A stretch of 64,000 nt of DNA, taken from Hemileia vastatrix (Eukaryota > Basidiomycota > Pucciniomycetes > Pucciniales > Zaghouaniaceae). The DNA is taken from NCBI GenBank assembly GCA_030280995.1, contig JASXTE010000019.1, positions 8,047,501 through 8,111,500 of the forward strand, given 5' to 3'. This document shows positions 6,455 to 49,372 of the stretch, piece by piece. Numbering within the stretch: the stretch's first letter is position 1; each line of letters starts with the position of its first letter. The notes below the pieces were generated by a model. That model saw only the letters and a list, made by a program, of their open reading frames with translations. It had not been told where the DNA came from and did not search any database. A program made the translations under genes and the position numbers.

Positions 6455-6474
6455 TTTCAGTGTATGCTAGTATC

Positions 6475-7251
6475 TGTCACCGGACGACCTACGCACAAGG
6501 TTGAGGATGTTCCTGTAAGTGAGATGAGGGATTTTAGAAACTTCTTTGAAGCACAGAGGAATGATTCGAGGAAATGATTCTAAGGTCACTCGAAGTAATA
6601 GCTATAGGTTCGAGGTTCGTTCGAGAAGAATTATAAACTAGTTCCAAGGTAATAATAATTCTTAAAATCTCATGAAGGGTTGGAAACTCAATAATCAAAG
6701 ATTTAGGATTTAGAAATGAATATTGAGAAAGTAAAAGAAAGATACAATAACAATGATTTAACTTTTAAGGATTTACCACTATTAATGTAAATACGATATT
6801 ATAATTTAATTCTAAGGAATATCGAACCAAATACCCAACTCCTTTTATATCCTTTGTTCCACCTCGCATTGACCTCCCTTCCATCGCACCATTCCCATTC
6901 CATTGACCATTACTAACAAACACTTAGACCCTCTTCACTAAATATCCGTCCATGCTCAATTTACCCCTTTTTAATTAATTAACAAAACTTTAATGAAAAA
7001 AAAACTACTACTGTACTATTTCGTTGAACCTAGCGCTGTGCTTCGCTTATTGAAAAGGATCAAGGTACCCCATTGGGAGATTGATTAATTTAGATTTAGA
7101 GTTTAGGCTAGCGCAGTTAAATAGTAAGTACACAAAGGAAAATTGCAGTTGATATGGAGAATTGCTTTCTGCGCTTCGAGTATAGATTTAGGACTCGATA
7201 TTATTGATTTAATGAGTTGATTTCGCCTCGAGTGTCACGTGGCGCCTGACA
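6475..7251 (-). repeat. 3' LTR of A1
   Basis: 777 bp, pairing with 14142-14916. On the plus strand it runs from TGTCACCGGACG to GGCGCCTGACA. It retains one of the two CACGTG boxes found at the outer end of the 5' LTR. Confidence 0.95.
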
Positions 7252-7261
7252 GATGCCCGGG

Positions 7262-7270
7262 TATAAAAAA
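7262..7270 (+). promoter_or_regulatory. TATA box of the antisense gene in A1
   Basis: TATAAAAAA lies 10 bp inside the 3' LTR boundary and 99 bp upstream of the ATG at 7361. It points to the plus strand, against the retrotransposon genes. A start near 7290-7300 is inferred. Confidence 0.6.
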
Positions 7271-7360
7271 GGCAAACTCCGTTGAGCTTGAGCCATCTTC
7301 CCACACTAATTTCCCTTGTCTAATACTTTTTCCCCTCACCTCTTAATTACTTATTTTATA

Positions 7361-8314
7361 ATGAACTGCCCTACTCCCACACCCACGCCTCCACACCCTA
7401 AAGCGGATGGGGGAATAATCACACAACAGTTTTCACAGACTTGCACGGCTTGTGAAAGCATGGAATATTTTTGTGTCGAAAGTACGGCGACTCGAGGCCC
7501 TCTCCAGAAATGCGAGTTTTGCCGTTGGCGGCGAGTGGCGTGCAATGCGTTGACGAAGAACGCGGAAATCGAAAAACGATTTACAAAAAATAAGTTTTGG
7601 GTAGTTCCGAAGACCAAAGAGGTGGTCGAAGACATTTGGGATGTCTCGATCGAAGATGAACAATCGGTGGGGGAAAATGATAAGGAGTTGAACAACGAGA
7701 TCTCAACCTGGGTAACCCAGGCCACGAGTTCTAAGCGAGGTGTCGACAAAGAGGTCGACGAATTGGTGGAGGAGGATGAAGATGAAGTCCCTGTTCCAGG
7801 GTGGGCACCCAAGAAACGACGGGTGGTCATCGAGGACGATGAGGAAGAGAGAGAGGTAGAGGTCGAAGTGGCGCCCAGGTTATTTCTAGAGCCTGACCCC
7901 ATCTTCGAGGTAAGTTTTTATCTGTTTATTTTAAGGATGAAGTTACTGATGAGTTTTTTGTTTTAGACATCGAATAACCTTGAAGAGCTGATTGCGGAGC
8001 CTGCACCGGTTATACCAACTGAGGTAAACCCTCCAGCCACGGAAGTAGTTGAAGAGGCCGAAGACACCCTTGACCAGGTGTGGTCGAAGAAACCTCGTCA
8101 AGGTTGACGAGTAAGGTTCGTGGAAGAACTATGTGGGGAGGTCGACGCTATTATTGACGCTGCTTCCTTCGACGTGGCAGAGGAGCTATTGGAGATGGGA
8201 GAGGTGGTTCCGGTAGGAGAGGAGGAGGTATTTGAGAAATGCAGGAAGGAAATAAGGGTAGTTTTGGAAAAAATGAAAAGATTGGTTCGAGAGAAGTTAA
8301 AAGAAAAGATTTGA
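7361..8314 (+). CDS. Antisense Zn2Cys6-like accessory gene of A1, spliced, one nonsense codon
   Basis: Exons 7361-7909 and 7967-8314 join in frame. The first ATG after the TATA box is at 7361. Cysteines 28, 31, 38, 51, 54 and 61 follow C-x2-C-x6-C-x12-C-x2-C-x6-C, the spacing of fungal GAL4-type binuclear zinc clusters. However, residues 32-37 (ESMEYF) lack the basic residues usual there, while 55-58 (RWRR) are basic. A KKRR stretch followed by acidic runs lies near residues 148-165 and could be a nuclear signal. Exon 2 has one TGA at 8105-8107, where A2 has CGA. The C-terminal part (AASFDVAEELLEMGEVVPVG) is conserved in A2. The gene converges on pol, about 940 bp away. A nuclear, possibly DNA-binding role is inference. 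Confidence 0.7.
7910..7966 (+). other. Intron of the antisense gene
   Basis: 57 bp, starting GTAAGT and ending TTTTGTTTTAG. Removing it joins 183 full codons to an exon that stays in frame to 8314 apart from one TGA. The signals work only on the plus strand, so the full-length retrotransposon RNA, copied from the other strand, would not lose it. A similar acceptor is present in A2 at 63958-63960. Confidence 0.75.
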
Positions 8315-8571
8315 AAAGAAAAGGAGATGTAAAGAAGTAGAGAAAAAAAATTGTATTTTAATTTTATTTTTTATTTTATTTTATTTTATTATTAGTATTA
8401 TTTTTTTTTTTTTTGTAGGTGAATGTTGTTAATTTTATAAGATTTGAGAGAGAGAGAAAAAGAAGAGAAAAAAAAAGAAAAAAGAAGTTTTAAATAAAAA
8501 AATTTTAGAATTTGAAAGAAGGATTTTAAAGAAAGAAAAAAGGTTGTTTTTAATTGAAGGAAGTTTTAGTG

Positions 8572-8603
<32 letters not shown>

Positions 8604-9256
8604 AAATTTTTATGTAAGAAAAGAGAGAGAAAAAGAAACGGTTTTGTGATTGAGATGAGTTTGTTAAATTGAGGATTTTAAATTTTTTTTTTTTTTTTTT
8701 AAGAAATTTTAGTTGAAAAGAGAGGAAGAAGAAAGAAAAGAAAAAAACAGAATTTAGAATTTAAGAGAATTGAAAAGAAGATTTATTTGTTTCGAAGAAT
8801 TATTATAGGGAGATTTAGAGGTTGAAGTTAAGTTCGAGGAAATGGTCGTGTCATACAAGATTTGATGATTCAAAGGAAAGAAAGTTTTTTTTTTTTTTAA
8901 AGAGAGAATAAATTTTTTGGAAGAGAAATTTTTAAAGAGAATTTTAAATTTAAGAAAAGAATGTATTTAAAGAATTAAAAAGAAAAGAAAGAAAATATTT
9001 AGAGAGATTTATTTTTATTTTATTATTAATGTTTTATTCTGTTTATTTTATTTTATTTAATTTTAATTTTAATTTAATTTTATTTTATTTTATTGTATTT
9101 AATTTTAATTTTGATTTTAATTTTAGTTGGTTTTGGAGGAAATTTTATAGAAAGAAAAGAAGAGAGAAAGAAGAAAACAAGGCTAAAAAATTTAAGAGGT
9201 TTTTTAGATTTTAAAGAAAGAAAGAAAAAGAAAAGAAAATTTTAAATAAAGAAATT
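8315..9256. repeat. Low-complexity A/T and purine-rich spacer between convergent genes of A1
   Basis: About 940 bp of T-runs, TTTTA-type tracts and GAAAG-type purine runs between the antisense gene and the pol stop. I see no gene. It probably holds the 3' ends and polyadenylation signals of both transcripts. The matching spacer in A2 is 62709-63637. Confidence 0.7.
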
Positions 9257-12200
9257 TTAAGGTTTTGGTTTTAAAGGATATTTCGAATGAAAAGATTTTA
9301 GGAGTTCAGGAGCGTTAGAAACATTGATGGCTGGTTCCCAGGATGTTTTGTCTGAGTCATTGAGGAAGCCTTCCCATTCCACGAGGTATTGAAGTTTCCC
9401 CTTGCGTATTCTTGAATCAAGGATACGACTTACTTCCCACTCTAGATGATCTTCTACTTCTACCGGTTCTGGAGGGGGTTGGTTCTTGCCTGGGTATATT
9501 TCTCGAGCCAGTTCCAGGAGAGATACATGGAAAACAGGGTGAATCGCCTGCCATTTAGGAGGTAACTTGAGTCGAAATGCAGTTTTAGAGACTTCAGAGT
9601 CGATTTCGAATGGTCCCAAGCGCTTTTCAGCTAGTTTCTTTGATGGTCTTGTTGTTCAAATGTTTCGTGCATCGAGCCATACTTTGTCGCCTGGTTTAAA
9701 GGAAGGAGCAGATTGTCGATGTTTGTCGGCCTGTTCCTTATATCTTTGAATCACTGATTCCAAATTTGTTTTAAGTTCTTCTTGGAGTCCTGATATAGTT
9801 CGAAGATAATGTTCCGCAGGATGATTAGTTCCTACATGGATTGAGTTGAATCGAGGATGTCATCCATAAATGTTTTCGAAGGGAGATTGTCGTGTCAAAG
9901 AATGAGTCGAGTTATTATAAGCAAATTCGGCCAATGGTAACCATGTGGTCCAATTGTCTTGTTGGTAACTGACATACATTCGAAGATATTGTTCGAGGAT
10001 TTGGTTAACTCTTTCTGTTTGACCATCGGTTTCAGGGTGATAGGCCGTGGAGAGATTCCTCGTGATATTGAGTTGTCGACACAGTTGGGTCCAGAATGTG
10101 GATACAAACAATGAGCCTCTATCTGAAATAATATCATTTGGTAAGCCGTGTTTGAAAAATACATATTCTAGAAACAATTTTGACAAATCTTCTGCTGTAG
10201 CAGTAGTAGTGGTTTTAATAAAAATAGACATTTTTGAGAATCTATCTACTATTACTAATATAGCATCAAAATCATTAGAAATAGGAAGTTGAGAAATGAA
10301 ATCCATCGATAAAGATTCCCAAGGTTTAGAGGGAATAGGAAGTGGTTGAAGAAACCCATGCTTCCGGTGACGGGGAGCCTTATTCCTATTACATTTGTAA
10401 CAAGCTTTTATATAGGCCTTGATTTCCCTGGTCATACCTGGCCAGAAGAAATCCCTTGCTATTAACTGGTAGGTTTTATCAACCCCAAAATGACCAGCTA
10501 ATGGAGAATCATGTCGACTGTTGAAAATCCATAATTTTATCTCATTGTTGTTGGGTATGACTACTCTACCTTCGAAGACTAATAGACCTGATTCAATACT
10601 AAATCTTTTGGCCCCTTGCTTTGAGAGTATTTTGTCTATTAACCCTAAACAATAATCGTCCTTTGACTGAGCTTCGAGGATGTAGGATAGTGGATTTTGA
10701 AAAGATTGAGTTGTCATCAAATTAAGTTGATGAGTCGTTAACATTGATTTGTTGAAGATTGATTGCACATTTGCTGGGTTCTTGTCAGCAAATGCGTCCC
10801 CCCGCTGTGGGTAAACGTCGTCCCGACGTGACAAGATATCTGGGACAATGCAGTTTTTTCCTGGGCGATAGGAAATAGAGAAAGAAAATTCAGACAAAAA
10901 TTCAGCCCACCTGGCTTGACGCCTGGTTAACACTTTAGAAGACATGAAGTATTTCAAAGCATTATGATCTGTTAAAATTTTAAAAGGACTATCTAGGCTG
11001 AGGAGAACAGAACGCCATTTTTTAAGACAATGGATAATAGCTAAAAGCTCTTTGTCATGAATTTCATAATTTAATTCTGCGGCTATGAGTTTGCGTGACT
11101 CAAAAGCAACAGGATGAAACAAATTTGTTTCAGGATTTAATTGGGAGATGACCCCTGCAATAGCATAATCGCTCGCATCTGTCTCAACTATTGTCGAGGC
11201 AGAAGGATCAAAATGTCGAAGAATCGGGGCTGTGGTGAACGCTGTTTTTAGTGCTTCAAATTCCTTTCGTGCTGTAGAAGTAAAAACAAAAGGAATATCT
11301 TTTCTAAGAAGAAAAGTAAGATTGGAAATAGTTTTAGAGTAATCTTTAATAAATCTTCTATAGAAGTTTGCAAAACCCAAAAATCCTTGGAGTGATTTAA
11401 TGTTTTTGGGCTCAGGCCATTCCAGGATTTTCTGGATTTTCTTATCATCCATGACTAAACCGTCAGTGGACAACGTAAAACCCAAAAAATCAATTGATTT
11501 GAGGTGGAATTCGCATTTATTATGCTTGGCGTAGAGACAATGATCTCGAAGACGATTTAGGATCTGTCGAACATGATGAATATGTTCATCCAGTGTTTTC
11601 AAGAATATTAAAATATTGTCTAAATAGACGACTACAAATTGTTCAACAACATCTTGAAAGATATCATTAACAAAAGTTTGAAAAGTTGAAGGTGCGTTAC
11701 ATAATTCAAAACTACCAAATCTAGTGCGCATTGCAGTCAGTGGTTCATGACCTTCCGCAATTCAAATAAGATTGTAAGCGCCTCTAAGATCAATTTTAGA
11801 AAAGAAATTAGCACCATTGAAAAGGGTAAGAAGTAATGACATAGGAGGAACAGGATATGCATTCTTCTTAGTGACTGTGTTGAGCTTTCTATAGTCAACA
11901 CACAACCTAAGACTACCGTCTTTCTTTTTTACAAAGAGGACAGGGGAGCCGGTTGGAGATTTACTGGCTCTGATGAAACATTTGGCTACATTCTCTGCAA
12001 TGTAGTCTCGAAGAACTTGAGATTCGTCCTTCGATAAAGAATAGACAGGACCTGCCGGAGGTACTGGGCCAATTAACTCTATTTGATGGTCGTAGGGTCA
12101 ATGAGGTGGTAACTTATCGGCCTTGCGGATTGAGAAAACATCGAGGAAATTGTGGTAGATTTCCGGTAGAGTTGATTTGATGGCTTCAACATTTATTTGG

Positions 12201-12885
12201 TCGTCCTCTTCATCTTCGAGAGAATCTGTCGAGGGGATACCTGTATTGAGAGAGCAGAATTCAATTACTTCGAGGCAATTTAAATCCTCTTTGAGTGAAG
12301 TCATCGAGCTAGAAGGGTTAGCCAATTGCTCATTTAAAGAAGGTACAGATGCTTGCAAGTCATCTGGCAGAGACTTGTCCTCTAGCAGGACGTTGTCAGG
12401 CGGGTTGTTTAACTCCCTATTGACCTGCATTGAAGAATCAGAAATATACTTAGAGCGTGGGGTGATCAATCCCCTAGTCCAATCAATTTCGGGATTCCAA
12501 TGCGTTAAAAAGTCATGGCCAAGAATGGTATCGTCCATCCTTGGGGCGTCCAAGACTGATAATTCCCACTCAAAGGGGGGAAAGTTTGGAAAGTTGAAAA
12601 CCCATAAAACTTTCTTACTTACCCAATATTTGGGTTCCTCTGATTCGACCAAATAGATGGGAGTTCGATCGATATCTGTAAATGTTAGTTGAAGCTTCTC
12701 GGCAAAAGATAAACTAACAAAAGAAATTGAAGCTCCAGAGTCTATAAGACAACTGAAGGGGATATCCTCCTTAAAAAGAATGAATCTCAAGCAGTTTAAG
12801 GCAACTCCAGTCCTTAAGACATGGAGTTTCTGTGCACTGGGAGAGATAAGATAGTTTGCTTTGCACACAAGTAAACTATCTACTA
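9257..12885 (-). pseudogene. A1 pol: protease, reverse transcriptase, RNase H, integrase, chromodomain (broken)
   Basis: Read in the -1 frame from the end of gag. Protease has LIDSGAS (12744-12764). Reverse transcriptase has LCVDYRKLN, but the catalytic YLDD is YLDN (11615-11626) and seven codons including the VMPFG block are missing near 11700. RNase H has VETDASDYAIAG; integrase has a His/Cys zinc part, MDFISQLP, DRGSLF and HPETDGQTERVNQ with the D, D, E residues; the C terminus is a chromodomain (EWEVSRILDSR, YLVEWEG, SWEP). In-frame TGA codons lie at 12098, 11762, 9860 and 9656. The chromodomain would target integration to modified chromatin in an active relative. Confidence 0.9.
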
Positions 12886-12892
12886 GTTTTTT
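12850..12892 (-). promoter_or_regulatory. -1 ribosomal frameshift site of A1 (slippery heptamer and hairpin)
   Basis: The minus strand has A AAA AAC (12892-12886) in the gag frame, directly followed by the gag stop TAG and, after 5 nt, an 8-bp stem GATAGTTT/AAACTATC (12880-12873 and 12857-12850) with a 15-nt loop that can pair further. Slipping one base back enters the protease frame with no stop. Canonical layout; conserved in A2 at 59100-59142. Confidence 0.85.
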
Positions 12893-14070
12893 GACTTCGA
12901 ACTAGTACCTTCTCTTTCCTTCAACTTTACACAGTCTTCCAACTTGTGCCTACCCCCACAATACATACATAACCCATTATCAGCTCGTCTCTTCCTCTCA
13001 GCTTCTTTAAGTTCCCCTTTAGGATCCAGTACTTTGCTGATATTGCCTGGGGTCGAGCCTTTTGGTCGAGGTTTATCCTTTGCCTTATTGGGTTTGGGTT
13101 GAGTCGAGGAGGATTGATTTGGTCGTGGGTGTGAAGAAGGTCCCGATTTAAAATTTAGGCCTTGAGATTTGTTGGCATATCGACGATGTTGAAGTCGTCC
13201 TTGATAAACGCCCTCAAGTTCGAGGGTTTGATCCATTAAGTCCGTTAAAGTAGTCATTTTTTGACCGTGAAGATTTAATTGATCTAGAATCCTCGAAGGA
13301 AGTCCTTTCTTGAAATGATACTTAAGGGCAGCATCATTCCAACCTACTCAAGTTTGAAGTGCTCTGAAGTTCAAGATATATTCAGAAGCTTTACCATTAT
13401 CACTCATGCGAAGAAAATCAAGTTCAATTTCCGCGTTGTCCGTTTCATTAGGGTCCCCAAACAACGTAAAAAGTTGGTCCTCAAACTTTTCCCAATTATT
13501 GATAAGTAAGTGGGTTTCTGTCGAAGAGAGCATGAGTAGATAAGGTTCAAACCATCTTGCTGCTTTTCGGGCTAGGAATGAAGAAGCGTAAACAACCTTT
13601 GATTGGTCGCTGTTAATGGTTCGAGGGTCATTATGGAACAGTAGCTTGCAGGTTTGCAAGAAGGGTCGCAATCTGTCAGGGTGATCTCCGTCAAATTTGT
13701 CAGGAGATTTAATAGAAGGAGTTTTGAACTTAGATCCCTCTGAAGATGTTGGATTTGAAAAGGTTTTCATGAAGAGTTTCATGAAATCTTCCAGAGAGTT
13801 AGATGGTCCCGGTTCTGAGGATTGGCCAGAAGGGTGATTGGCAGGGGCGGATGGTGCCTCATGCATTGTATCCTCTCCGTCTTCTTCATCACTAGAATCC
13901 TCAAAATCTTGTGGAATGTCTTCTACAGATTGAACTGAATGTTTCCGTTCCCTAAGGTTGAGTGGTTCCAAAGAGTGAGTGCGAGAAACAGACCTTGTGG
14001 CTGTTGGCCTGCCTCTAGCGCGAGCTCTAGTAGTAGCGCCCGTAGGAGGAGTGCGTTGAACAGGTGCCAT
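12883..14070 (-). CDS. gag: A1 gag (one internal TGA)
   Basis: Starts at ATG 14070 (MAPVQRTPPTG) and ends with TAG at 12883. An Arg/Thr-rich N terminus is followed by an acidic Ser-rich stretch, a capsid-like domain (SPDKFDGDHPDRLRPFLQTC, then ARWFEPYL, then LFGDPNE) and a zinc knuckle CMYCGGRHKLEDC. The knuckle is C-x2-C-x3-H-x4-C, one residue shorter than the retroviral type. One TGA at 13348-13350 interrupts the frame; A2 has CAA there, and both can derive from CGA. Gag would form the virus-like particle and bind RNA. Expression of pol depends on the frameshift site at its end. Confidence 0.9.
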
Positions 14071-14126
14071 TTAAAATTTTAGAAACACCTAAAAGGACGT
14101 AGTATTGCAAAGAATGAGAACTACGG

Positions 14127-14140
14127 AGAATTAAATTATA
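14127..14140 (-). promoter_or_regulatory. A1 primer-binding site complementary to its own RNA 5' end
   Basis: The minus strand reads TATAATTTAATTCT one base after the 5' LTR. It is an exact 14-nt complement of AGAATTAAATTATA at 14480-14467 in the same LTR, about 36 nt downstream of the start of the TATA box (14516-14510). This matches the self-priming layout known for Tf1 of fission yeast. Confidence 0.8.
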
Positions 14141-14141
14141 C

Positions 14142-14916
14142 TGTCACCAGACGACCTACGCACAAGGTGGAGGATGTTCCTGTAAGTGAGATGAGGGATT
14201 TTAGAAACTTCTTCGAAGCACAGAGGAATGATTCGAGGAAATGATTCGAAGGTCACTCGAAGTAATAGCTATAGGTTCGAGGTTCGTTCGAGAAGAATTA
14301 TAAACTAGTTCCAAGGTAATAATAATTCTTAAAATCTCACGAAGGGTTGGAAACTCAATAAGCAAAGATTTAGGATTTAGAAATGAATATTGAGAAAGTA
14401 AAAGAAAGATACAATAACAATGATTTAACTTTTAAGGATTTACCACTATTAATGTAAATACGATATTATAATTTAATTCTAAGGAATATAGAACCAAATA
14501 CCCAACTCCTTTTATATCCTTTGTTCCTCCTCGCATTGACCTCCCTTCCATCGCACCATTCCCATTCCATTGACCATTACTAACAAACACTTAGGCCCTC
14601 TTCACTAAATATCCGTCCATGCTCAATTTACCCCTTTTTAATTAATTAACAAAACTTTAATGAAAAAAACTACTACTGTACTATTTCGTTGAACCTAGCG
14701 CTGTGCGTCGCTTATTGAAAAGGATCAAGGTACCTCATTGGGAGATTGATTAATTTAGATTTAGAGTTTAGGCTAGCGCAGTTAAATAGTAAGTACACAA
14801 AGGAAAATCGCAGTTGCTATGGAGAATTGCTTTCTGCGCTTCGAGTATAGATTTAGGACTCGATATTATTGATTTAATGAGTTGATTTCGCCTCAAGTGT
14901 CACGTGGCACGTGACA
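14142..14916 (-). repeat. 5' LTR and promoter of A1
   Basis: 775 bp. In element orientation it starts TGTCACGTGCCACGTGACA, a near-palindrome with two CACGTG boxes. It contains GGATATAAAAGG (14519-14508) as TATA box, and the transcript start is inferred at about 14480-14486. It ends next to the primer-binding site. Confidence 0.93.
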
Positions 14917-14921
14917 GTATC

Positions 14922-22283: not shown

Positions 22284-23783
22284 TGTCAGCCTGTATATCC
22301 CCAGGACTGAGTAAAAAGTGCTTATAAGTTATTTTAAACACATGAACTATACATTGGAACAAGAAATGAGAGTACACAAACAGTATACATAAGTAAAATT
22401 ATGATAACACACATAAAATGCCATTATAACACCTTATATACACGCATATATCCATCTTTTATAAGTCTTATGTACTTAATATTAAGTTTGAATATGTTAG
22501 GGTAATCTTAAGAACCTTAAGTATAAGGCTACATAATCTTTAAGTACACTTAAAGCTGTTATATTCATTGTTTTACACAAAAAACAAGAAATGCGCTTTA
22601 TTTCACTTAAACATTGACTATATGCGCTATAAAATTGAGAATATCAAAATTGCGCTTTGACAGATCAATTGGGCTCATTTAGAACTATTGATTTGGCTAT
22701 TTAAATGTATAAAAATAACACTTTTCAAATTTGGTGTTTTTTATGCCAGAAATGGCTTCTGTGTACTGGCTACATACTGCCTGCTTTTTTCCCGTGTGAA
22801 TAGCTTCATATTTAGCAAAGTTAGCTTTTTCACACTATAATTACCCCACATTCTACGCTCACTGTGGGGAAACACACAAAAATAGGCGACAGGCGCTTAT
22901 TTAGTGTCCTAGCTTAATTAATAATGCATTGACCTTGTTTATATGCACTAATTTCATTAATAACCTTACTCTTGGCACTTTATTTCATCACCACGCTTAA
23001 ATTCGCCTAATTTTAGTCAAGGATTTACCTGTGCAAGCACCTGCAAAGGACTGCATGGAGTTACCCCACATCTCACGCTCTTTTTTAAGTTTTTGGGTGG
23101 TTTCTCAGTCAATATTGGTTATTTTTGAATGGGAATTTCACGTAGTATAATGTCAAGATTAGCCCCTCCATTTCTACTGTAGACTCCCCTTATTATTAAG
23201 CTATAATTAACCTTAAAAAGTCTCCTTTCACCTTGTTATAATATTGTTTTCCACGCATATATTCTCTTTTTGTCTTTTCTTTAATTTTGATGGATCTCCC
23301 TTATTATTAATAGGATTTTAGTGGTTGTTGTTTGTTTAATTATGTTATTGGTCACTAGGGCGTTGATGGAGAGGTCTATTACTTGTTTGAAGGCGTCATT
23401 AACATTGTATTGGGTGGTACATCAAGGTGGTTATTGGGGAAACTTAGTGTGTATAAAAGGAGAGGGTTTTTGGTCTTGTTTTCTGCATTCTTTATCATTT
23501 ACAATTTACACAATATAACCAAATCAATTACAATACATATCAATTAGTACTTTTATAATACTTTTGAATAGTATCTGAATTATAAAATCTATTTTTCTAC
23601 CAACTACAAAGATTGTAAGCCTTATATAAAATAGTGAGAGTTATATTACTGAGACCTTAATTTTGATTAAATTTTATTACTTATTGGATTTAGTTTACAG
23701 TATTCATATAGGACCATTAAAATCTTCTAGACAACTGACTATTCAAGCTAGTTCACGTCCTTGTACTTGACCTTAGCCTGACA
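22284..23783 (+). repeat. 5' LTR of B2
   Basis: 1500 bp, near-identical to 30402-31900. A 65-codon open frame at 23321-23518 is present in both LTRs, but it overlaps the promoter region and is probably not coding. Confidence 0.93.
23452..23458 (+). promoter_or_regulatory. TATA box in the B2 5' LTR
   Basis: GTGTATAAAAGGAGAGG lies about 330 bp before the LTR end, as expected for an LTR promoter. The start is inferred 25-35 nt downstream. Confidence 0.6.
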
Positions 23784-23800
23784 ATTGGGGACCTTTCCTC
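23784..23800 (+). promoter_or_regulatory. B2 primer-binding region
   Basis: ATTGGGGACCTTTCCTC follows the LTR directly. Unlike family A it is not complementary to the LTR near the TATA box, so tRNA priming is more likely. The tRNA was not identified. Confidence 0.5.
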
Positions 23801-24367
23801 AAGAATTCTGTTATAATCCAGTAAGTGATATTTTCAATAGAAGGTGCACGTAAATAATATCCCTATAGAAATATTTGGATAATTACAACAGGTTGGGGTC
23901 ACTTATATAGTGATTTCAGAAAAAGAAGCCCTGTTATATAATAAAAATTGTGATATTGAATGAACAATTTTACCACTAATTTAACATAAAATTGTTATTA
24001 GTGGGAGTCTGTCAATAGACCAATTAAATTTGTGATCTTTGCAGATAATAAACCAAATAAACTGATTAATTGTTTTCTTTTAACAGGACTCTTAATTTTT
24101 TCTTTTTATTGGTTTGTAATATTCATTAAATATTTAGAAAGAATCTTACTAACAGTTGTTTTATTTTAAATATAAAAACACGGCTACATATTGTAGACCA
24201 GTTAAATTAAGTGACCACATAAAAAGCATATTTGACTTTTGGCACTTAAAGATTCACTTCATACCAATAAGTAAGCAATAAAATTGTCTTCAGTGGTATT
24301 GATAAATACTGATAAAACTCTTTTTTGAAGTTTTTATATCTAAATTCTCAAATTCTTTAAATTCCAC
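23801..24367 (+). other. B2 5' leader
   Basis: About 570 bp of AT-rich leader between primer site and first reading frame; no feature seen. Confidence 0.6.
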
Positions 24368-24973
24368 ATGAAAATGTTTGACAACAATGACATTGTAAGT
24401 AATAAGGCAAAACCTTATAACTTAAGACCTAGAGCTGAAAGACCTGTTACAGGACATTCAAATGGAGGGCCAGGACTCTCCCATAATCAACAACACTCCA
24501 CAAATGTCTCTGGAGGAAAGGGAAAAGCTTCTAAAGCAGGTTTCAATAAAGAAGTCAAAAAATACTTTACAAGAACAAGTTCACTCCCTATCCACCCTAA
24601 TGAACACCTTGACAATAAGAGTCAACAACATAGTGGACCAGATCAACAATCTGGAAAAGAGAGCAGCTCAAGGTTTCATAGAATTCAACCAAGCTCTAGT
24701 GGACATAAAGACTCAACCACCAACAGTGGCATCCAACAATTCCATAGCAACACCTCCATCCCAAGAGGAGGACCAAAAAATTACAGTAATCAAATGGAAA
24801 TGGGATTGGTACGCCAAAAATTACAACAATCCTCCTCAACAAGGATCCAGCAGTCACCCTTACAGGGGAAAGCCAAAGAGAGGCAGGGGAAATGGAGTAA
24901 GACCTTGGTGAGTCATCCAACTTCTTATGAACAATTACATCAACCTAAAAATGAATTACTTATAGGTAATTAG
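24368..24973 (+). CDS. B2 first reading frame, overlapping ORF0
   Basis: 201 codons from ATG, starting MKMFDNNDIVSNKAKPYNLRPR; Ser/Gln/Lys-rich and without a recognised domain. It overlaps ORF0 (24504-24911) in another frame. B1 keeps this frame open for 136 codons, and B3 keeps a matching tail (PSPSLQGKEKAKSK versus QSPLQGKAKERQGK). It may be a real protein, or the N-terminal part of ORF0 reached by a frame change. I do not know its function. Confidence 0.45.
   Translation: MKMFDNNDIVSNKAKPYNLRPRAERPVTGHSNGGPGLSHNQQHSTNVSGGKGKASKAGFNKEVKKYFTRTSSLPIHPNEHLDNKSQQHSGPDQQSGKESSSRFHRIQPSSSGHKDSTTNSGIQQFHSNTSIPRGGPKNYSNQMEMGLVRQKLQQSSSTRIQQSPLQGKAKERQGKWSKTLVSHPTSYEQLHQPKNELLIGN
24504..24911 (+). 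CDS. B2 ORF0: coiled-coil protein with basic RG-rich tail
   Basis: The conserved part starts at MSLEEREKLLKQVSIKK; the frame is open from 24462. A heptad-like segment (VNNIVDQINNLEKRAAQGFI) is followed by ITVIKWKWDWYAKN and the basic tail HPYRGKPKRGRGNG. The tail suggests nucleic-acid binding. B1 and B3 carry aligned but broken versions (in B3, IVTVGKCKWDRMQNQN). It precedes gag by about 120 bp. Function not established. Confidence 0.5.
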   Translation: MSLEEREKLLKQVSIKKSKNTLQEQVHSLSTLMNTLTIRVNNIVDQINNLEKRAAQGFIEFNQALVDIKTQPPTVASNNSIATPPSQEEDQKITVIKWKWDWYAKNYNNPPQQGSSSHPYRGKPKRGRGNGVRPW

Positions 24974-25034
24974 ATTGATAAGGAAATATTGGATATAATT
25001 TATAATGATTTAAAGGATTATTCATTTGAAAAAA

Positions 25035-25883
25035 ATGTTAAACTTGTCTTTGCACAAAGACAATGTAGATAGTTTTATTGATCACCAGGATAATGCTATT
25101 AATATTAAAATGGAATCAAATGATGAGTCTTCTGAGTTGGACACAGAAAAAATAGAATATTTTTTAAAAGAAAATCCAATGGAATCAAAGATAATAAGTA
25201 AATTATTATTTAGAATTGAAAAATTGGAAGAGTTCTCAAAAGAGTCAAACAATAATACAGAAAAGGTATTATTACAGCTAACACAATCATTGAGTGCAAC
25301 GGCCAATAGATTAAAAATTATTGAAAATTCAAATAATGAATTAGTCAATGAGAATAAAGGTTTAAAATCTGAGATTAGAGATTTAAAAAATAAATTAGAA
25401 CACTCTCAGAATATTATGGCTACCATTGAGGGACGTGTTAAATTATCTCTTTCAAATGTAAATGACACCCTAACTCATGTACCAGTAATACAGGATAGGT
25501 TACAAAGAGTGGAAATAGAAGTAGAAAACATGTTGAAAAATACTGAAAGAATAAAAGATAACACTTCTTATGTAACAAGAATGCCTGTTTTCATGAAACA
25601 TGCAAATGAAACACCAATGGTGGAACATGAACATAGTATGATGGGCTCTGAGAATAATAAATCAGTAAAAGATGAAATACATGATCATCTTTCTAAAGTA
25701 AGTGAATTACTCAATATTCCTCAGGTTAGGGAAGCAAAAACTAGCCAAAAGAACTGGCCTAAGTTAGATCAGTACCCATCTTTTGACGGAGATTCAAAAT
25801 CTGATTGGCAACAATTCATACAAAGAATTGATAACTTAAAATTTTCATACAAATTACCTGATGAAGAAATTAATTCAAAGTAA
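25035..25883 (+). CDS. gag: B2 Gag N-terminal part (coiled coil and capsid start)
   Basis: First ATG at 25035. Long coiled-coil segments (IEKLEEFSKESNNN, IENSNNELVNENKGLKSEIR) precede capsid text DHLSKVSELLNIPQ and PKLDQYPSFDGDSKSDWQ, shared with B1, B3 and B4. It ends at a TAA (25881-25883) where other copies read through, and the same frame continues immediately after. So it is one gene with a nonsense codon, not a natural gag end. Confidence 0.8.
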   Translation: MLNLSLHKDNVDSFIDHQDNAINIKMESNDESSELDTEKIEYFLKENPMESKIISKLLFRIEKLEEFSKESNNNTEKVLLQLTQSLSATANRLKIIENSNNELVNENKGLKSEIRDLKNKLEHSQNIMATIEGRVKLSLSNVNDTLTHVPVIQDRLQRVEIEVENMLKNTERIKDNTSYVTRMPVFMKHANETPMVEHEHSMMGSENNKSVKDEIHDHLSKVSELLNIPQVREAKTSQKNWPKLDQYPSFDGDSKSDWQQFIQRIDNLKFSYKLPDEEINSK

Positions 25884-27773
25884 ATATCTTTATTAAAAGA
25901 TGTGGCCTTATTATGGTTTGAATCTGTATTGAGTGAGGGAATTAATTACTCCTGGAAAGAATTGAAGGCACTAATTGAAAGGCAATTTGGTGGCCCAAAA
26001 TTTAGAATCACTCAACAGAGATTGTATGAAAAGACCAGATATAATCCAAATGCTGGAGATAAACCTATGGTATTTTTAATGAATTTAATAAAAATCATGA
26101 AAGCCATGGATCCAAAAATGGATTATGAAGAGTGGAAAGAAAAGATAATATACAAGTTACCTATATCAGTTAGAGACATTATTGTAGCTAGAACTGAAAC
26201 CATCAGAGATACCTCTGGGTTCATTAATATATGTAATGAAATATTATTAAACCACAAATATGAAACCAAGTATATTAATTACAGGCAAAGTGTTGACATG
26301 GTAAAACCTACTACAAGTAAATTACCAGTAGAGAAGAAAAAACCTTCAGCTCCCCTTGTCCCTAAAAGACAAGAGAATAACACTTGTTATAAATGTAATG
26401 AACCTTGGGTTAAAGGTCACACGTGTAAGAAAAGAATAAATGTTATTGAAACCTCCCAGAATTCTGAACCAAGTAATCATGAAGATGAAAATATGGAATC
26501 CAGTGAGGATTGTAAAAGTAACATATCTTACAGTGATGATGAGAATGAGATATTTGTATTAGAACAGGATATAATGTTCCTGAATGATGCTATACCTCAT
26601 ACAGATACATCTTCAACTTCCATTGAAGAAGCTGAGATAATTAAAGATGTATCTCATGATACTTACAAAATAACACCTATCAGAGCACCTGTTATTATAT
26701 GTGGAAAAGAAATGAATGCCATTCTTGACACTGGGGCTGCAGGTAGTGTAGTTTCTAGTAATACATTCATGAAACTTGACAGTAAGTATAAGGAAAAACT
26801 AGAACGTGTTCAGACAAAGAACTGGAGGGGTTTTGGTTCAATATTAAATCCAATTGGCAAATACAAAACTGCAGTATTCTTTAAATATAATAATGTATAT
26901 GTAAGAGCAGTTTGTGAATTTTTAGTAATGGATAATAATAATTGTAGTGATTGGTTTATTATTGGCAATGATTTATTGACAAAATTTGGAATTAAACTAG
27001 ATCCTGCAAACAGTTGTTTCACCATAGGAGTGAATGGTAAGAGAAAATTCAAGATATGTTCTGAAAATTCAGTGTATGCCATTTCTCCTAGAGAAGAACA
27101 ACTACAAGGTGAAAGAACCACCAATGAAGTGGGTGAATTGGAAAATGAAATCCAAAAGGCCTCTTTCAGTCCTCAACTCTCAAAAATTGAAGAAGAAAAT
27201 ATTTTGAGATTGATTAAATCATATCCTATGGCATTTGCTCATGGTTCAAATGAATTAGGATTGGTCAAAGACCATGAGATGAAAATATCTCTAAGCTGTG
27301 ATTTGGATAATATTCCTGGCAGCCTAAAAAAGAAACCTTACCCAGCATCTCCTGCAAAAAGGAAAGATATTGAAGACAATATAAAAATGTTGTTAGAAAT
27401 GGGTATTGTTGAAAAAGTGGACACAACACCTAAGTATTGTGTCATTTCACCAGTATTGATCTCTTATGAAAAAGATAAGGCAAGATTATGCGGTGATTAT
27501 AGAGCTCTGAATACATACACAGTAGATGATATTTACCCTCTACCAAGGATAGCTTCTATCCATGCTACTTTACAAGGAGCAAAATATATTTCCTGTCTGG
27601 ATGGAAAAAAAGGTTACCACCAGATTCCTGTGGAAAGAATTTCTCAAAATTACTTATTAATAACCACACATATGGGTATATATAAGTATGTGAGAATGCC
27701 ATTTGGCCCAAAGAATGCGCCTTCAGTCTTCCAAAAATTGATGGATAGTGTTTTTTCATCAGGAAATGGTTGA
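25884..27773 (+). CDS. B2 Gag C-terminal part, protease and reverse transcriptase 5' half
   Basis: Continues in frame after the TAA. It contains capsid (ALLWFESVLSEGINYSW; EKIIYKLPISVRDIIVARTE), a zinc knuckle CYKCNEPWVKGHTC, an acidic linker, an aspartic protease with AILDTGAAGSVVS (about 26716-26754) and reverse transcriptase motifs LCGDYRALN and MPFGPKNAPSVFQK. Gag and Pol are in one frame here, unlike family A. The frame is lost at a run of six T (27751-27756); five T would keep it open into the next piece. Confidence 0.88.
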   Translation: MSLLKDVALLWFESVLSEGINYSWKELKALIERQFGGPKFRITQQRLYEKTRYNPNAGDKPMVFLMNLIKIMKAMDPKMDYEEWKEKIIYKLPISVRDIIVARTETIRDTSGFINICNEILLNHKYETKYINYRQSVDMVKPTTSKLPVEKKKPSAPLVPKRQENNTCYKCNEPWVKGHTCKKRINVIETSQNSEPSNHEDENMESSEDCKSNISYSDDENEIFVLEQDIMFLNDAIPHTDTSSTSIEEAEIIKDVSHDTYKITPIRAPVIICGKEMNAILDTGAAGSVVSSNTFMKLDSKYKEKLERVQTKNWRGFGSILNPIGKYKTAVFFKYNNVYVRAVCEFLVMDNNNCSDWFIIGNDLLTKFGIKLDPANSCFTIGVNGKRKFKICSENSVYAISPREEQLQGERTTNEVGELENEIQKASFSPQLSKIEEENILRLIKSYPMAFAHGSNELGLVKDHEMKISLSCDLDNIPGSLKKKPYPASPAKRKDIEDNIKMLLEMGIVEKVDTTPKYCVISPVLISYEKDKARLCGDYRALNTYTVDDIYPLPRIASIHATLQGAKYISCLDGKKGYHQIPVERISQNYLLITTHMGIYKYVRMPFGPKNAPSVFQKLMDSVFSSGNG

Positions 27774-29754
27774 AGGATGGCTATTGGTCTATATTGATGA
27801 CATCATAGTGTTTTCAAAAACATATGATGAACATTTAAGTCACCTGAAAAGAGTCTTTCAAAGAATGGATGAAATTAATATGACAATTGCATTAAAGAAA
27901 TGTAAATTTGGATTCCAATCTTTGAAAGTACTTGGACATGTTGTATCTGGATTACAAATTTGTGCTGACCAGAACAAGGTGGCAGCAATAAAAAACATTG
28001 GTATACCTAAGAATGTAAAAGAAATTCCAAGATTTTTAGGTATGTGTGGATATTATAGACAATACATAAAAAATTACCAATCTATTGCAGCCCCTTTGAC
28101 AACATTAATCAGGAAAAATGAAGCTTTCATTTGGAATAATGAAAGACAACACCCCTTTAATAAATTAAAGGAATGTTTAATGACAGCTCCAATTTTGGGA
28201 CTGCCTGATTTCACCTTACCTTTTATCTTGTACACTGATGCAAGCTTCATAGGTTTAGGTGCTGCTCTACAGCAAAAACAGATAATAAATGGAAAATTAT
28301 CTGAAGTAGTTATCTGTTATATATCCAGAACCTTAAGAAAAACTGAATTAAGGTATGGTGCCACACAGTTAGAATGTTTAGTCGTGGTGTGGGCTTTGGA
28401 GAAGCTTCATTACTATCTGGAAGACCAGAAGTTTGAACTTATAACAGATTGCAGTGCAGTAAAATCATTGCTAAACATGAAAACACCTAATAGGCACATG
28501 TTTAGATGGCAACTAGCTGTACAAGAGTACAGAGGAAGAATGACAATCACTCACAGAGCGGGAACATTGCATTCTAATGTGGATTTATTATCTAGAATTC
28601 CTTTGCCAAATGATGCTGACAACCCAGCTTATGTACCTGAAAATGAGGTTATACATATATTTGGGATTTATATAGTGGATTTAGAAGAAGAATTTATGCA
28701 AACTATATTAGAAAATTATTCATCTGATAAAGATTTGTCTAAAATATCTACCATTCTTAATGATCCAACAAATGCCTCCATGAGTGCATTAATTAAAACC
28801 TTGCCTCCAAAGTATAAAAATGCATTGGAAAAAGGTAAATTATCAGTTGAAGATGGATATATATATTACAGAAAAAAGTTAAGTAATGTTATAGTAATAC
28901 CACCTTCTATGAAAGAGTTAATGTTGAGTACTTGCCATGATGACATCTTAGCTGGTCATTTCGACTTTAACAAAACATTAACCAGAGTTAAAAATACAGC
29001 CTGGTGGATAAACATGAAAGAAGATGTACAAAAATACATTGAAACATGTGACTCTTGTCAGAAATCTAAAAGATTAACTGGTAAGAGATCTGGGTTGTTA
29101 CAACAAATAGAGCAGCCAAAAGCTCCATGGGAAATTATAAACATGGATTTTGTAACTGGCTTGCCATTATCAGGAAAAGAAAGTTTCAATTCATGCTGGG
29201 TAATTGTGGATAGATTAACAAAAATGTGTAAATTTATCCCTACCCATAAAGAGGTATCTGCAAAAGACTTGGCATTATTATGGTGGACTCAGATGATGAA
29301 TACTGCTGGGTTCCCCAAAGCCATAATCTCTGACAGAGATCCTAAATTTACTTCAGAGCTCTGGACATCCTTGATGGAAGTATTAGGTTGTCAATTAAAA
29401 TTGTCTACAGCACACCATCCACAAACTGATGGGCTGGCTGAGAGAAAGATAAAAACTCTAGAAGACATGATCAGAAGATATTGTGCCTTTGGATTAGAAT
29501 ACAAAGACAATGAGAAATTCACACATGACTGGGTAACATTAATTCCTGGCCTTGAATTTGCTTATAATAGCACAACTCATTCTGTAACAGAGAAGAAACC
29601 ATTTGAACTCTGGCTGGGATACGTACCAAATACCCCAGTAAATCATTTAAATAAATTACCAAGGTTAGATATACACCCTGGTACTAAATCCTTTATTCAT
29701 ATGCAACAATTGTGTAGAAAGCATGCTGAAGAATGCATACAAAAAGCATTTTAA
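27748..29754 (+). CDS. B2 reverse transcriptase 3' half, RNase H and integrase
   Basis: Begins after the T-run frameshift. YIDD (about 27793-27804) is intact. RNase H has LYTDASFIGLGAAL, the ECLVVVWALEK block and TDCSAVKSLL. Integrase has the His/Cys zinc part (CHDDILAGH, then CDSCQ), MDFVTGLP, SDRDPKF and HHPQTDGLAERK with the D, D, E residues. It ends at a TAA (29752-29754) that replaces a glutamate codon seen in B4. Apart from these breaks the enzyme looks complete. Confidence 0.9.
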   Translation: MFFHQEMVEGWLLVYIDDIIVFSKTYDEHLSHLKRVFQRMDEINMTIALKKCKFGFQSLKVLGHVVSGLQICADQNKVAAIKNIGIPKNVKEIPRFLGMCGYYRQYIKNYQSIAAPLTTLIRKNEAFIWNNERQHPFNKLKECLMTAPILGLPDFTLPFILYTDASFIGLGAALQQKQIINGKLSEVVICYISRTLRKTELRYGATQLECLVVVWALEKLHYYLEDQKFELITDCSAVKSLLNMKTPNRHMFRWQLAVQEYRGRMTITHRAGTLHSNVDLLSRIPLPNDADNPAYVPENEVIHIFGIYIVDLEEEFMQTILENYSSDKDLSKISTILNDPTNASMSALIKTLPPKYKNALEKGKLSVEDGYIYYRKKLSNVIVIPPSMKELMLSTCHDDILAGHFDFNKTLTRVKNTAWWINMKEDVQKYIETCDSCQKSKRLTGKRSGLLQQIEQPKAPWEIINMDFVTGLPLSGKESFNSCWVIVDRLTKMCKFIPTHKEVSAKDLALLWWTQMMNTAGFPKAIISDRDPKFTSELWTSLMEVLGCQLKLSTAHHPQTDGLAERKIKTLEDMIRRYCAFGLEYKDNEKFTHDWVTLIPGLEFAYNSTTHSVTEKKPFELWLGYVPNTPVNHLNKLPRLDIHPGTKSFIHMQQLCRKHAEECIQKAF

Positions 29755-30225
29755 TATGAAAATAAAAGGTGGGACAAATCTCATAAAGAATTTGAATTTA
29801 AAAAGGGAGATGAAGTCCTCTTATCAACACTACATTTTAACTTACAAGGTAATGTTAAATTAGAGGATCCCTTTGTAGGACCTTTTGTAGTAAACAAAAT
29901 GGTTGGTAATAATGCAGTGGAAGTCATATTATATGCTCCATATGATAGGAAACATCCAGTTTTCCCTATGTCATTATTAAAACCTTACCACGCAAATGAT
30001 CCTGACTTATTTCCAAAAAGAAGGGGAAGGCCTAAAAAGCAACCTGAAGAAATTGTGGAAAAAGCAGAGATTGAAAAAATACTCAAGAAAAGAATCCTTA
30101 CTAAAGAAAAAGGAACTGAGTATTTACTAAGATTTAAAGGGAAATCAAATGAATTTGATAAATGGATACCTGAAAAAGAAATTTCTAATTTATCCAACCT
30201 TCTTAAAAAATTTAAACAGAAATAA
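29755..30225 (+). CDS. B2 integrase C terminus and chromodomain
   Basis: In frame with the preceding piece. The integrase tail (KKGDEVLLSTLHFNLQ; GPFVVNKMVGNNAVEV; HPVFPMSLLKPYH) is followed by a basic RRGRPKKQPEE stretch and a chromodomain-like module (EIEKILKKR, EYLLRFKGKSNEFDKWIPEK). Ends KFKQK and stop, 170 bp before the 3' LTR. Confidence 0.85.
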   Translation, partial: YENKRWDKSHKEFEFKKGDEVLLSTLHFNLQGNVKLEDPFVGPFVVNKMVGNNAVEVILYAPYDRKHPVFPMSLLKPYHANDPDLFPKRRGRPKKQPEEIVEKAEIEKILKKRILTKEKGTEYLLRFKGKSNEFDKWIPEKEISNLSNLLKKFKQK

Positions 30226-30390
30226 ATTTCTGTTCAACCAGCTGAGGGGTTAAAAACCAGTACTCATAATATTCTATTATGTTCTATTTCTTTAAAGTTT
30301 AATCTTTAATGCTACAGAATTATTCTGAATACATGATAATTACAAATAAATAAAATGTATAACTTATCATTTTTTTTATTGTTTTTTTTT

Positions 30391-30401
30391 GTGTGGGCGA
30401 G
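30391..30401 (+). promoter_or_regulatory. B2 polypurine tract
   Basis: GTGTGGGCGAG lies directly before the 3' LTR after a T-rich run. B4 has GGGTGAGGGAG and B3 AGAGTGAGGGAG at this position, so this is the probable plus-strand primer. Confidence 0.6.
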
Positions 30402-31900
30402 TGTCAGCCTGTATATCCCCAGGACTGAGTAAAAAGTGCTTATAAGTTATGTTAAACACATGAACTATACATTGGAACAAGAAATGAGAGTACACAAACA
30501 GTATACATAAGTAAAATTATGATAACACACATAAAATGCCATTATAACACCTTATATACACGCATATATCCATCTTTTATAAGTCTTATGTACTTAATAT
30601 TAAGTTTGAATATGTTAGGGTAATCTTAAGAACCTTAAGTATAAGGCTACATAATTTTTAAGTACACTTAAAGCTGTTATATTCATTGTTTTACACAAAA
30701 AACAAGAAATGCGCTTTATTTCACTTAAACATTGACTATATGCGCTATAAAATTGAGAATATCAAAATTGCGCTTTGACAGATCAATTGGGCTCATTTAG
30801 AACTATTGATTTGGCTATTTAAATGTATAAAAATAACACTTTTCAAATTTGGTGTTTTTTATGCCAGAAATGGCTTCTGTGTACTGGCTACACACTGCCT
30901 GCTTTTTTCCCGTGTGAATAGCTTCATATTTAGCAAAGTTAGCTTTTTCACACTATAATTACCCCACATTCTATGCCCACTGTGGGGAAACACACTAAAA
31001 TAGGCGACAGGCGCTTATTTAGTGTCCTAGCTTAATTAATAATGCATTGACCTTGTTTATATGCACTAATTTCATTAATAACCTTACTCTTGGCACTTTA
31101 TTTCATCACCACGCTTAAATTCGCCTAATTTTAGTCAAGGATTTACCTGTGCAGGCACCTGCCAAGGACTGCATGTAGTTACCCCACATCTCACGCTCTT
31201 TTTTAAGTTTTTGGTGGTTTCTCAGTCAATATTGGTTATTTTTGAATGGGAATTTCACGTAGTATAATGTCAAGATTAGCCCCTCCATTTCTACTGTAGA
31301 CTCCCCTTATTATTAAGCTATAATTAACCTTAAAAAGTCTCCTTTCACCTTGTTATAATATTGTTTTCCACGCATATATTCTCTTTTTGTCTTTTCTTTA
31401 ATTTTGATGGATCTCCCTTATTATTAATAGGATTTTAGTGGTTGTTGTTTGTTTAATTATGTTATTGGTCACTAGGGCGTTGATGGAGAGGTCTATTACT
31501 TGTTTGAAGGCGTCATTAACATTGTATTGGGTGGTACATCAAGGTGGTTATTGGGGAAACTTAGTGTGTATAAAAGGAGAGGGTTTTTGGTCTTGTTTTC
31601 TGCATTCTTTATCATTTACAATTTACACAATATAACCAAATCAATTACAATACATATCAATTAGTACTTTTATAAGACTTTTGAATAGTATCTGAATTAT
31701 AAAATCTATTTTTCTACCAACTACAAAGATTGTAAGCCTTATATAAAATAGTGAGAGTTATATTACTGAGACCTTAATTTTGATTAAATTTTACTACTTA
31801 TTGGATTTAGTTTACAGTATTCATATAGGACCATTAAAATCTTCTAGAAAACTGACTATTCAAGCTAGTTCACGTACTTGTACTTGACCTTAGCCTGACA
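30402..31900 (+). repeat. 3' LTR of B2
   Basis: 1499 bp, TGTCAG to CTGACA, pairing with 22284-23783. Confidence 0.93.
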
Positions 31901-44900: not shown

Positions 44901-45000
44901 ATATTCTCTGTATTGGTGTTGACGTTTGTGAGTTAGGCACAGTTGCAGGATACATTTGGAGCATTGGAAAAATTTTATGGAAGTTGAGATTTTTTAAAGA
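42000..45000 (-). pseudogene. Tnp2-like (CACTA/Plavaka-type) transposase, broken
   Basis: The best-preserved block (43679-44095) reads NMALSMFINWYNPKGNKISV, then CLNLPPCLQNK, LAGITPGPD and INHILRPF, the core order of Tnp2-family transposases in basidiomycetes. Further text includes DSTHHFVLGAIQNWL and SRSDYDEEEDL at 43280-43510 and GRLTEYQWYTL near 43120-43160. Upstream text near 44664-44888 is the likely N-terminal part. Several stops and frame changes: not functional. It would act on the CACAACAGGG ends. Confidence 0.7.
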
Positions 45001-45231
45001 TAAAAAATAAATTTGCTTTCTTTTGCTGGAAGCTATGCAATATGGGAAAAATGAGAATAATTAAAAACACACCAGGTGAGAAGCAAAAAAAAGTGGTGGC
45101 TGGGGAGTTTTTCCTTCACTGAAGTCACATGTTTCTCCCAAATTTAGAAACAACTATTCATGTAAAACTCAAAGCCACATGATGCAACAGTTGTCAGATC
45201 AGTCTAATGCAACAGCTGATTCCCTGTTGTG

Positions 45232-46600: not shown

Positions 46601-46619
46601 TCTATACAGAACTGCTTGT

Positions 46620-47130
46620 GATGCCTGCTATTCCAGAAAGAAATCTTGCTCCAGACCTGGTCCATTATAATCTGCAACATATTCACCTCCCCCTCAACCT
46701 GGCCCTTCTTCCAGCAAAACCAAAAGATCTAGGCCTTCCATCTTGACACCCAGATTAATCAACAAATTAAACCCTTCCAAAAAGTGCTCCAACACCCCTA
46801 CAACCACTAGCTCTACCATACCTGGTCCTTCTGATGGTAAACCCAATGCTTCTCCAAATTGGAATTTGAAACTGATTAATTTCCAGCTCATTCCCATCCA
46901 GACAGTGATGATGACAATGTGGGAACCATTGAAACACCACCACCCAATAAATTTCCCACCATCAAGGACAAATTCTAAAAACACTCTTCTCAACAAAAAC
47001 ATCTCATTCTAAACTACTTCAAATCTGCTCCTGCCAAGATCCACAGGAAATTGAGAAAAGAAGACACCTCATCCACCAGTTTAAGACTAATGCTGAACAC
47101 TTTGTTTCATCTCTTGATTCTCTTCTGTGA
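46620..47130 (+). pseudogene. Unidentified decayed coding stretch
   Basis: One frame gives PGPSSSKTKRSRPS and another gives DSDDDNVGTIETPPPNKFPT and APAKIHRKLRKEDTSS, a composition like the disordered N terminus of Gag or of accessory proteins. Stops break both. Assignment not possible. Confidence 0.3.
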
Positions 47131-47184
47131 TTGATTCTTGCCTGAAATTCTTGATTTAGAAATAAAAAATAAAAAATTTCCTTG

Positions 47185-47585: not shown

Positions 47586-47731
47586 TTTTCATAAAAGGAT
47601 GGAGCCAATTCCATGCACAATACTCCACAACGGCCCTACTGATCTTCCACTTTCCCTTTATCATCTAGACATCACTGATAAAAAATTCTCCTTTTATATA
47701 TTTTCTCTTCATTGTTGTTCCAGCACAGATA

Positions 47732-49114: not shown

Positions 49115-49372
49115 TTCCCAAAAATTACCTTCTAACCCATTACCTGACCATTAAAATCCATATACTTTTTCCAGCCGCCTACACCACAAAGAACACAGTT
49201 CTTCTTCCAATCCTAACAAAAAGAAAAACTCCACCATAATCCGGACCAACCGCTGGTGGCTTCTTCTTCCAATCATTAAAATAAAAAGAAAGAAATTAAT
49301 AATTCACTAAATAGAGAGAACAATAATAATTAGCAGATATATATAAAAAAAAATTTTTTATTTTATTCTAAC
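49115..49372. other. Short unassigned stretch before the hexamer array
   Basis: No feature beyond increasing A/T content toward the array. Confidence 0.5.

Follow-up and report, generated by a model that had tools for sequence, protein, structure and literature searches.

The window considered here, a stretch of 64 kb from Hemileia vastatrix, has a GC content of 32% and holds several Ty3/gypsy elements. In one of these, a split reading frame with six regularly spaced cysteines lies on the strand opposite to gag-pol, which raises the question whether this frame is a gene of the retrotransposon, and what its protein could do. The features on which the initial annotation had based such a gene (a TATA box at 7262, an ATG at 7361, six cysteines, a 57-nt GT-AG intron and a PKKRR stretch, all antisense between pol and the 3' LTR) were all found in the sequence. 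The carrier, designated element A, is built up as follows.

6475–14916, minus strand: element A, Ty3/gypsy with chromodomain; gag-pol broken by stops and shifts
6475–7251, minus strand: 3' LTR of element A
9257–9619, minus strand: integrase C-terminus, Tf2-1-like SH3 and chromodomain (Pfam SH3_Tf2-1, Chromo)
9860–11731, minus strand: reverse transcriptase, RNase H and integrase (Pfam RVT_1, RT_RNaseH, Integrase_H2C2, rve)
12098–12868, minus strand: protease frame (Pfam RVP_2)
13348–14070, minus strand: gag frame (Pfam Retrotrans_gag)
14142–14916, minus strand: 5' LTR of element A

The element is flanked by a 5-bp target duplication, GTATC (6470–6474 and 14917–14921), and its LTRs are 97.9% identical over 775 aligned positions. 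In self-primed elements of the Tf1 type, the primer site pairs with a stretch inside the LTR, close to where the transcript is expected to begin. In element A, and also in a diverged element B discussed below, a site just after the 5' LTR is an exact 14-nt complement of an inner LTR stretch downstream of TATAAAAG (14127–14140 and 14467–14480 in element A), and a match of 14 nt was reached by none of 2000 shuffles of the element A primer site. By both criteria, i.e. the chromodomain integrase and the primer-site complementarity, the carrier can be classified from its sequence as a self-primed Tf1-type chromovirus. No long polypurine tract was found directly before the 3' LTR on the sense strand (7252–7340); in the same interval a short GGGC run adjoins the antisense TATA box, and GAGGGGAAAAAG lies about 75 nt off. 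Another Ty3/gypsy element in the window (22284–31900) has 1.5-kb LTRs with 99% identity. Its type of pol (E2) was the commonest of the types sought in a 200-kb sample from another contig, and no antisense zinc-cluster pattern was seen in the E2-type elements of this sample.

The antisense gene has moved with element A, because it sits between the LTRs. Its parts are the following.

7262–7269, plus strand: TATA box TATAAAAAA, ten nt inside the 3' LTR edge (7251)
7361–7909, plus strand: exon 1, 183 codons, starting with ATG 7361
7442–7543, plus strand: six-cysteine zinc-cluster-like region, basic half (CEFCRWRRVAC) second; weak, half-swapped match to Pfam Zn_clus
7808–7822, plus strand: PKKRR, nuclear-localisation-like
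7910–7966, plus strand: intron, 57 nt, phase 0, GTAAGT...TTTTAG, joining exon 1 to exon 2
7967–8314, plus strand: exon 2 frame, with a premature TGA at 8105–8107 in the window copy
8108–8311, plus strand: C-terminal 68 residues, predicted helical hairpin, past the premature stop of the window copy

The cysteines, at 7442, 7451, 7472, 7511, 7520 and 7541, form the pattern C-x2-C-x6-C-x12-C-x2-C-x6-C, and are followed by a conserved stretch, FWV.PKTKEVVEDIWD. Residues 85–183 are acidic (33 acidic versus 11 basic residues). The gene had been described as extending to 8314, which holds for the frame and not for the window copy, since its in-frame TGA leaves 8314 unreached; without that stop the full product would have about 298 residues. 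The C-terminal hairpin was modelled from two sequences only, with helices at residues 2–30 and 38–67 of this part (mean pLDDT 78.8, pTM 0.55), and a structure search with it gave 33 matches at E ≤ 10, none of them at E ≤ 0.001. For exon 1 the AlphaFold model was unusable (pLDDT 42), and no match to a solved structure was found. The GC content of the gene stretch, 47%, exceeds that of the LTR (36%) and of 8400–9200 (19%). When the 64-kb window was simulated 150 times with a first-order model, the six-cysteine pattern never arose, nor did it in 200,000 shuffles of the residues encoded by exon 1; the stop-free run of 222 codons is less special, being reached in 25 of 2000 simulations.

Copies of the gene were sought in the 747.6-Mb assembly (791 contigs). 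In the DNA search, the best 40 of 4254 candidates were scored and 27 of these 40, the window copy included, were read; the antisense gene itself served as query, so that elements without it would escape. The 39 scored copies besides the window are 94–97% identical to the window DNA. In all 27 copies read, which were picked by the gene itself, about 110 nt separate the ATG from the LTR edge, and on the other side of the gene pol was found in all eight copies with long flanks, in one of them partly. The TATA box and the ATG are kept throughout (27/27), as is the AG acceptor, and the GT donor is present in 26 of the 27. All six cysteines are kept in 26 of 27 copies including that of the window, in agreement with the conservation across copies on which the regulator claim had been made to depend. 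The gene is both open and splice-intact in 13 copies, one of which has a cysteine change, and not fully open in the remaining 14; the TGA at 8105–8107 is common to four of the 27. Stops in the family amount to 20 occurrences at 11 sites, and 16 of the 20 are at CpG-containing codons, which makes decay by cytosine deamination likely. A protein search with exon 1 returned 6835 candidates, and the best 150, which were scored, all cover residues 1–183 with at least 92% identity. Exon 1 is stop-free in 139 of these 150 and has stops in 11, figures that apply to the best-scoring matches and so favour intact copies.

Selection on the frame across family copies had been set beforehand as a test, and it is visible in the 27 copies, exon 1 having a pN/pS of 0.23 and exon 2 one of 0.34; in the two shifted plus frames exon 1 gives 0.97 and 1.65. 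A minus-strand frame over exon 1 (7902–7351) remains open in 25 of the 27 copies, with a within-family pN/pS of 0.32. This frame was rejected as a true gene, having a weaker ratio than the plus frame and two stops in element B, and we attribute its low ratio to selection on the plus frame, with which it shares codon positions. A chance origin of the plus frame is ruled out by the simulations, the features conserved across copies and the purifying selection. The position relative to the LTR, the conserved cysteines and splice sites and the selection together bear out the earlier assignment of the gene to the element, and on this evidence the antisense frame is taken to be a selected protein gene, the making of the protein being indicated indirectly, through purifying selection. 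The same data bear on the proposal that the antisense RNA alone matters, through double-stranded RNA or promoter interference, with the open frame as a by-product. Antisense RNAs of LTR elements have been proposed to act in this manner (PMC7264820); here, the frame-specific purifying selection within and between elements, together with the conserved cysteines and splice sites, leads us to reject an RNA-only role, to which we give scarcely any probability.

The comparison between elements was made with element B, a diverged plus-strand element that starts at 57044 and runs past the window end.

63602–64000, minus strand: 3' part of the antisense gene in copy B; exon 1 lies beyond the window

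Copy B keeps the TATA box, the six cysteines, PKKRR, the intron position and the GT donor; its damage consists of two premature stops and loss of the acceptor AG. Between A and B, pS and pN are 0.71 and 0.16 in exon 1, 0.79 and 0.088 in the zinc region, and 0.67 and 0.20 in exon 2. The resulting pN/pS of exon 2, 0.29 (95% bootstrap 0.20–0.41), is comparable to that of the gag and pol parts (0.19–0.40). The antisense protein has long been under constraint. Silent divergence is unevenly distributed, with a pS of 0.22 in the reverse transcriptase-integrase part, 0.32 in gag and 0.66–0.71 in the antisense gene, so that silent sites of the latter (7361–8314 versus 63602–64000 plus locus L009) are about three times as diverged as those of pol. 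At fourfold sites outside CpG context the divergence is 0.53 of 15 sites in the antisense gene versus 0.14 of 58 in pol, and CpG alone does not seem sufficient as a cause of the excess. It would be explained if elements had exchanged their 3' ends; against this speaks the fact that U3, spacer and intron differ by only 0.24–0.32 between A and B.

These data also bear on the idea that the gene came recently from the host, as a transcription-factor gene that was transduced and is carried along as a passenger. Zn2Cys6-type domains are typical of fungal regulators (PF00172 description and general knowledge of the family), and the intron could be a cellular relic. The location of the gene does not vary among the copies read, and A and B have diverged under constraint to near-saturation of silent sites, which points to an old, selected part of the element; moreover, the best 150 exon-1 matches, at 92% identity or more, include no diverged cellular gene. 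Recent capture is therefore considered very improbable. A product that acts on the host, e.g. by regulating host genes or silencing to the benefit of the element, would agree with the high copy number (a first look gave 6835 candidates for exon 1, and the best 150, which were scored, all matched) and with constraint persisting after near-saturation of silent sites. Nothing found here points to a host target, and we regard a host-directed role as improbable, to a lesser degree than capture.

Apart from element A, a single match to the six-cysteine pattern occurs in the six frames of the window, at 46548, and it belongs to a further element, C.

45374–46457, minus strand: 3' LTR of element C, matching the two LTRs of a C element at another genomic site
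46539–46850, plus strand: antisense gene 1 of element C, zinc cluster at 46548; stop after the cluster in the window copy
47732–48181, plus strand: antisense gene 2 of element C, degenerate, with two stops at the cluster start
51848–53532, minus strand: pol fragment (integrase) of element C, from its frames and similarity to the integrase of A

In the 200-kb sample of another contig (one stretch), one element C was found, with 1.09-kb LTRs that are 98.7% identical, pol on one strand, two zinc-cluster genes on the opposite strand between pol and the 3' LTR, and another element nested inside; no A-type copies were found in this sample. The sampled copy, at C26:30145604-30168810 (loci L043–L045), has the same features as that in the window. 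A third pattern match in the sample was a low-complexity repeat with a stop, and was discarded. In both C copies the ATG of gene 1 is 82 nt from the LTR edge. Their zinc parts have a pN/pS of 0.29 in gene 1 (43 codons) and 0.23 in gene 2 (66 codons), with off-frame values of 0.74–2.19, and longer parts of the genes give 0.42 and 0.32, respectively, versus 0.96–1.43 off frame. Gene 1 is multicopy (best 40 of 3666 candidates scored); among six copies read, the window included, an LTR end lies within 82 nt in five, the LTR match stopping earlier in the sixth, and the full cysteine pattern is present in three. A Pfam scan of the six frames of 43999–50000 gave only one weak unrelated match (E 0.029). 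The long 3' region of element C also contains a TTTTTA hexanucleotide array of about 220 units (49355–50690), and a short tandem repeat of the word GTCTTGGGGGACT (47179–47294) lies between the two zinc-cluster genes. Elements A and C are distant, with 26% identity over 446 residues from the reverse transcriptase on and 22–23% in the integrase, and the presence of the zinc-cluster arrangement in two such lineages disfavours a one-off capture.

How far does the cysteine cluster resemble a known DNA-binding domain? Zn2Cys6 domains follow the pattern C-x2-C-x6-C-x(5-12)-C-x2-C-x(6-8)-C. The cysteines of element A fit this spacing (PF00172), and as in GAL4 and LAC9 (PF00172; PDB 1d66, 1cld) there are two C-x2-C-x6-C halves of which one is basic. 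The "exact GAL4 spacing" of the initial annotation did not hold up, since GAL4 has six residues between the halves and element A twelve; the order of the halves is swapped as well, and the score is below the Pfam cut-off. The gathering cut-off of Pfam Zn_clus (PF00172) is 21 bits, and in the profile search that had been suggested beforehand the proteins of A and B stay below this level: element A scores 8.9 bits as a whole (exon-1 protein, E 2.1) and 14.4 bits as a cut piece, and the copy B piece 8.4 bits. Gene 1 of element C passes in the window (26.6 bits) and fails in the second copy (16.6 bits), and both copies of gene 2 remain below the cut-off (16.9 and 13.8 bits). All listed best stretches show the halves in swapped order, with profile positions 16–34 aligned to the first half and 1–16 to the second, so the PF00172 order, with the basic half first, is not that of these proteins.

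A profile of the A gene and the two C genes gave LAC9 as its first match (E 0.002), followed by GAL4 (E 0.08 and 0.10 in the best rows), and here too the halves align in swapped order. The match belongs to this joint profile, with both element C genes included; lower rows held AlcR and Cep3, but also ribosomal protein L30 (E 0.29–0.38). With the zinc piece of element A alone, the structure database yielded only an antibody (E 1.2), and its two half-pieces, searched separately, had no match. In protein databases, none of 126 candidates matched exon 1 and none of 7646 reached E ≤ 1 with an exon 1+2 profile; these misses say little, because the control search with the gag of element A also found none (of 337, at E ≤ 0.001). 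In viral_contigs, pol gave no pattern match, and the 54 pattern matches obtained with exon 1 included none that was confirmed. The cluster of element A plausibly works like a Zn2Cys6 domain, but the protein is not filed as a member of PF00172.

HBZ of HTLV-1 is a nuclear bZIP protein of a retrovirus, encoded by an antisense gene that is driven from the 3' LTR. The geometry of the element A gene is analogous; no homology is claimed. HBZ is also named in PMC11963269 and PMC7264820. Genes in antisense orientation between pol and the 3' LTR have in fact been described before, e.g. brtn of Boty and those of Grande and Retand, and the element A gene has the position of an aORF-3R, between pol and the 3' LTR and antisense to gag-pol. 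The Boty-like retrotransposons of Botrytis cinerea (Zhao et al. 2011, via PMC8365987, PMC7264820 and PMC4227169) are likewise fungal Ty3/gypsy elements with a chromodomain and the extra gene brtn in this location and orientation; the likeness considered here is one of element type, position and orientation. Plant examples (PMC7264820, PMC11963269) are Grande gene23, RIRE2, PvRetro13 and Retand TRP28, which share position and orientation with the element A gene and are present in most copies of a family. The Grande product is reported to be nuclear (PMC7264820, PMC11963269), and the antisense proteins of Retand contain TRP28, with DNA binding as a proposed function (PMC11963269); the plant genes differ in their domains, those reported there being TRP28, SMC and a few others. 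Further background on antisense retrotransposon genes is given in PMC5987419.

The word "zinc" is absent from the main text of PMC7264820 and PMC11963269. In the rust-genome papers PMC10067951 and PMC12210899, "antisense" is absent from the main text, as are "zinc finger" from that of the former and "zinc" from that of the latter. Our literature search, which had most subscription papers including that on brtn outside its reach, found no report of a zinc-cluster antisense gene in fungal retrotransposons. The gene had been called unusual for Ty3/gypsy; this does not apply to its position, known from plant elements and Boty, and stands for its zinc-cluster content, of which no description was found.

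We conclude from these data that the frame is a true accessory gene, carried by a self-primed Ty3/gypsy element with a chromodomain, and propose, with moderate confidence, that it most likely encodes a nuclear DNA-binding regulator of the transcription of the element. The TATA box just inside the 3' LTR would drive an antisense transcript, from which the 57-nt intron would be spliced out, as suggested by the conserved splice sites and the frame; this intron can persist through retrotransposition, since it is not spliceable in the genomic RNA, which has the sense orientation. The mRNA would be translated into a protein of about 298 residues with the half-swapped six-cysteine cluster, an acidic middle part with PKKRR and the C-terminal helical hairpin, which could dimerise. 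By its parts, such a protein may enter the nucleus, bind DNA and control LTR or other promoters, possibly including a feedback on the LTR promoter as exerted by HBZ in HTLV-1. CGG half-sites, as candidate targets, are few in the LTRs.

The cysteine cluster, the basic stretch resembling a nuclear localisation signal and the helical hairpin would fit equally well in a zinc-containing, nucleic-acid-binding accessory protein that is not a regulator and helps in a replication step, e.g. as a chaperone, in targeting integration or in bringing the pre-integration complex into the nucleus. The weakness of the Zn_clus match agrees with this, and accessory roles have been proposed for such genes (PMC7264820). 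An antisense transcript of its own, instead of that of gag-pol, would be more natural for a regulator, and the best solved-structure matches of the profile are DNA-binding domains of transcription factors. We therefore hold a replication-accessory function to be rather unlikely, and prefer the transcriptional regulator.

A wider proposal, which seems to us quite possible though short of probable, is that the retrotransposons of this genome carry a regulator class of their own, consisting of antisense genes at the LTR edge with half-swapped Zn2Cys6 clusters. These would be kept in two distant Ty3/gypsy lineages or more, either acquired separately in each or passed between them as a module, and would be the fungal equivalent of HBZ in retroviruses. 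In that case, the high silent-site divergence next to a similar pol would result from specificity groups that elements exchange together with their 3' ends. In the present gene a recognisable domain, measurable selection and many copies come together, so that one can test directly whether retrotransposons encode transcription regulators of their own, and the swapped-half zinc clusters, if real, would show an instructive deviation within a DNA-binding domain that is very common in fungi.
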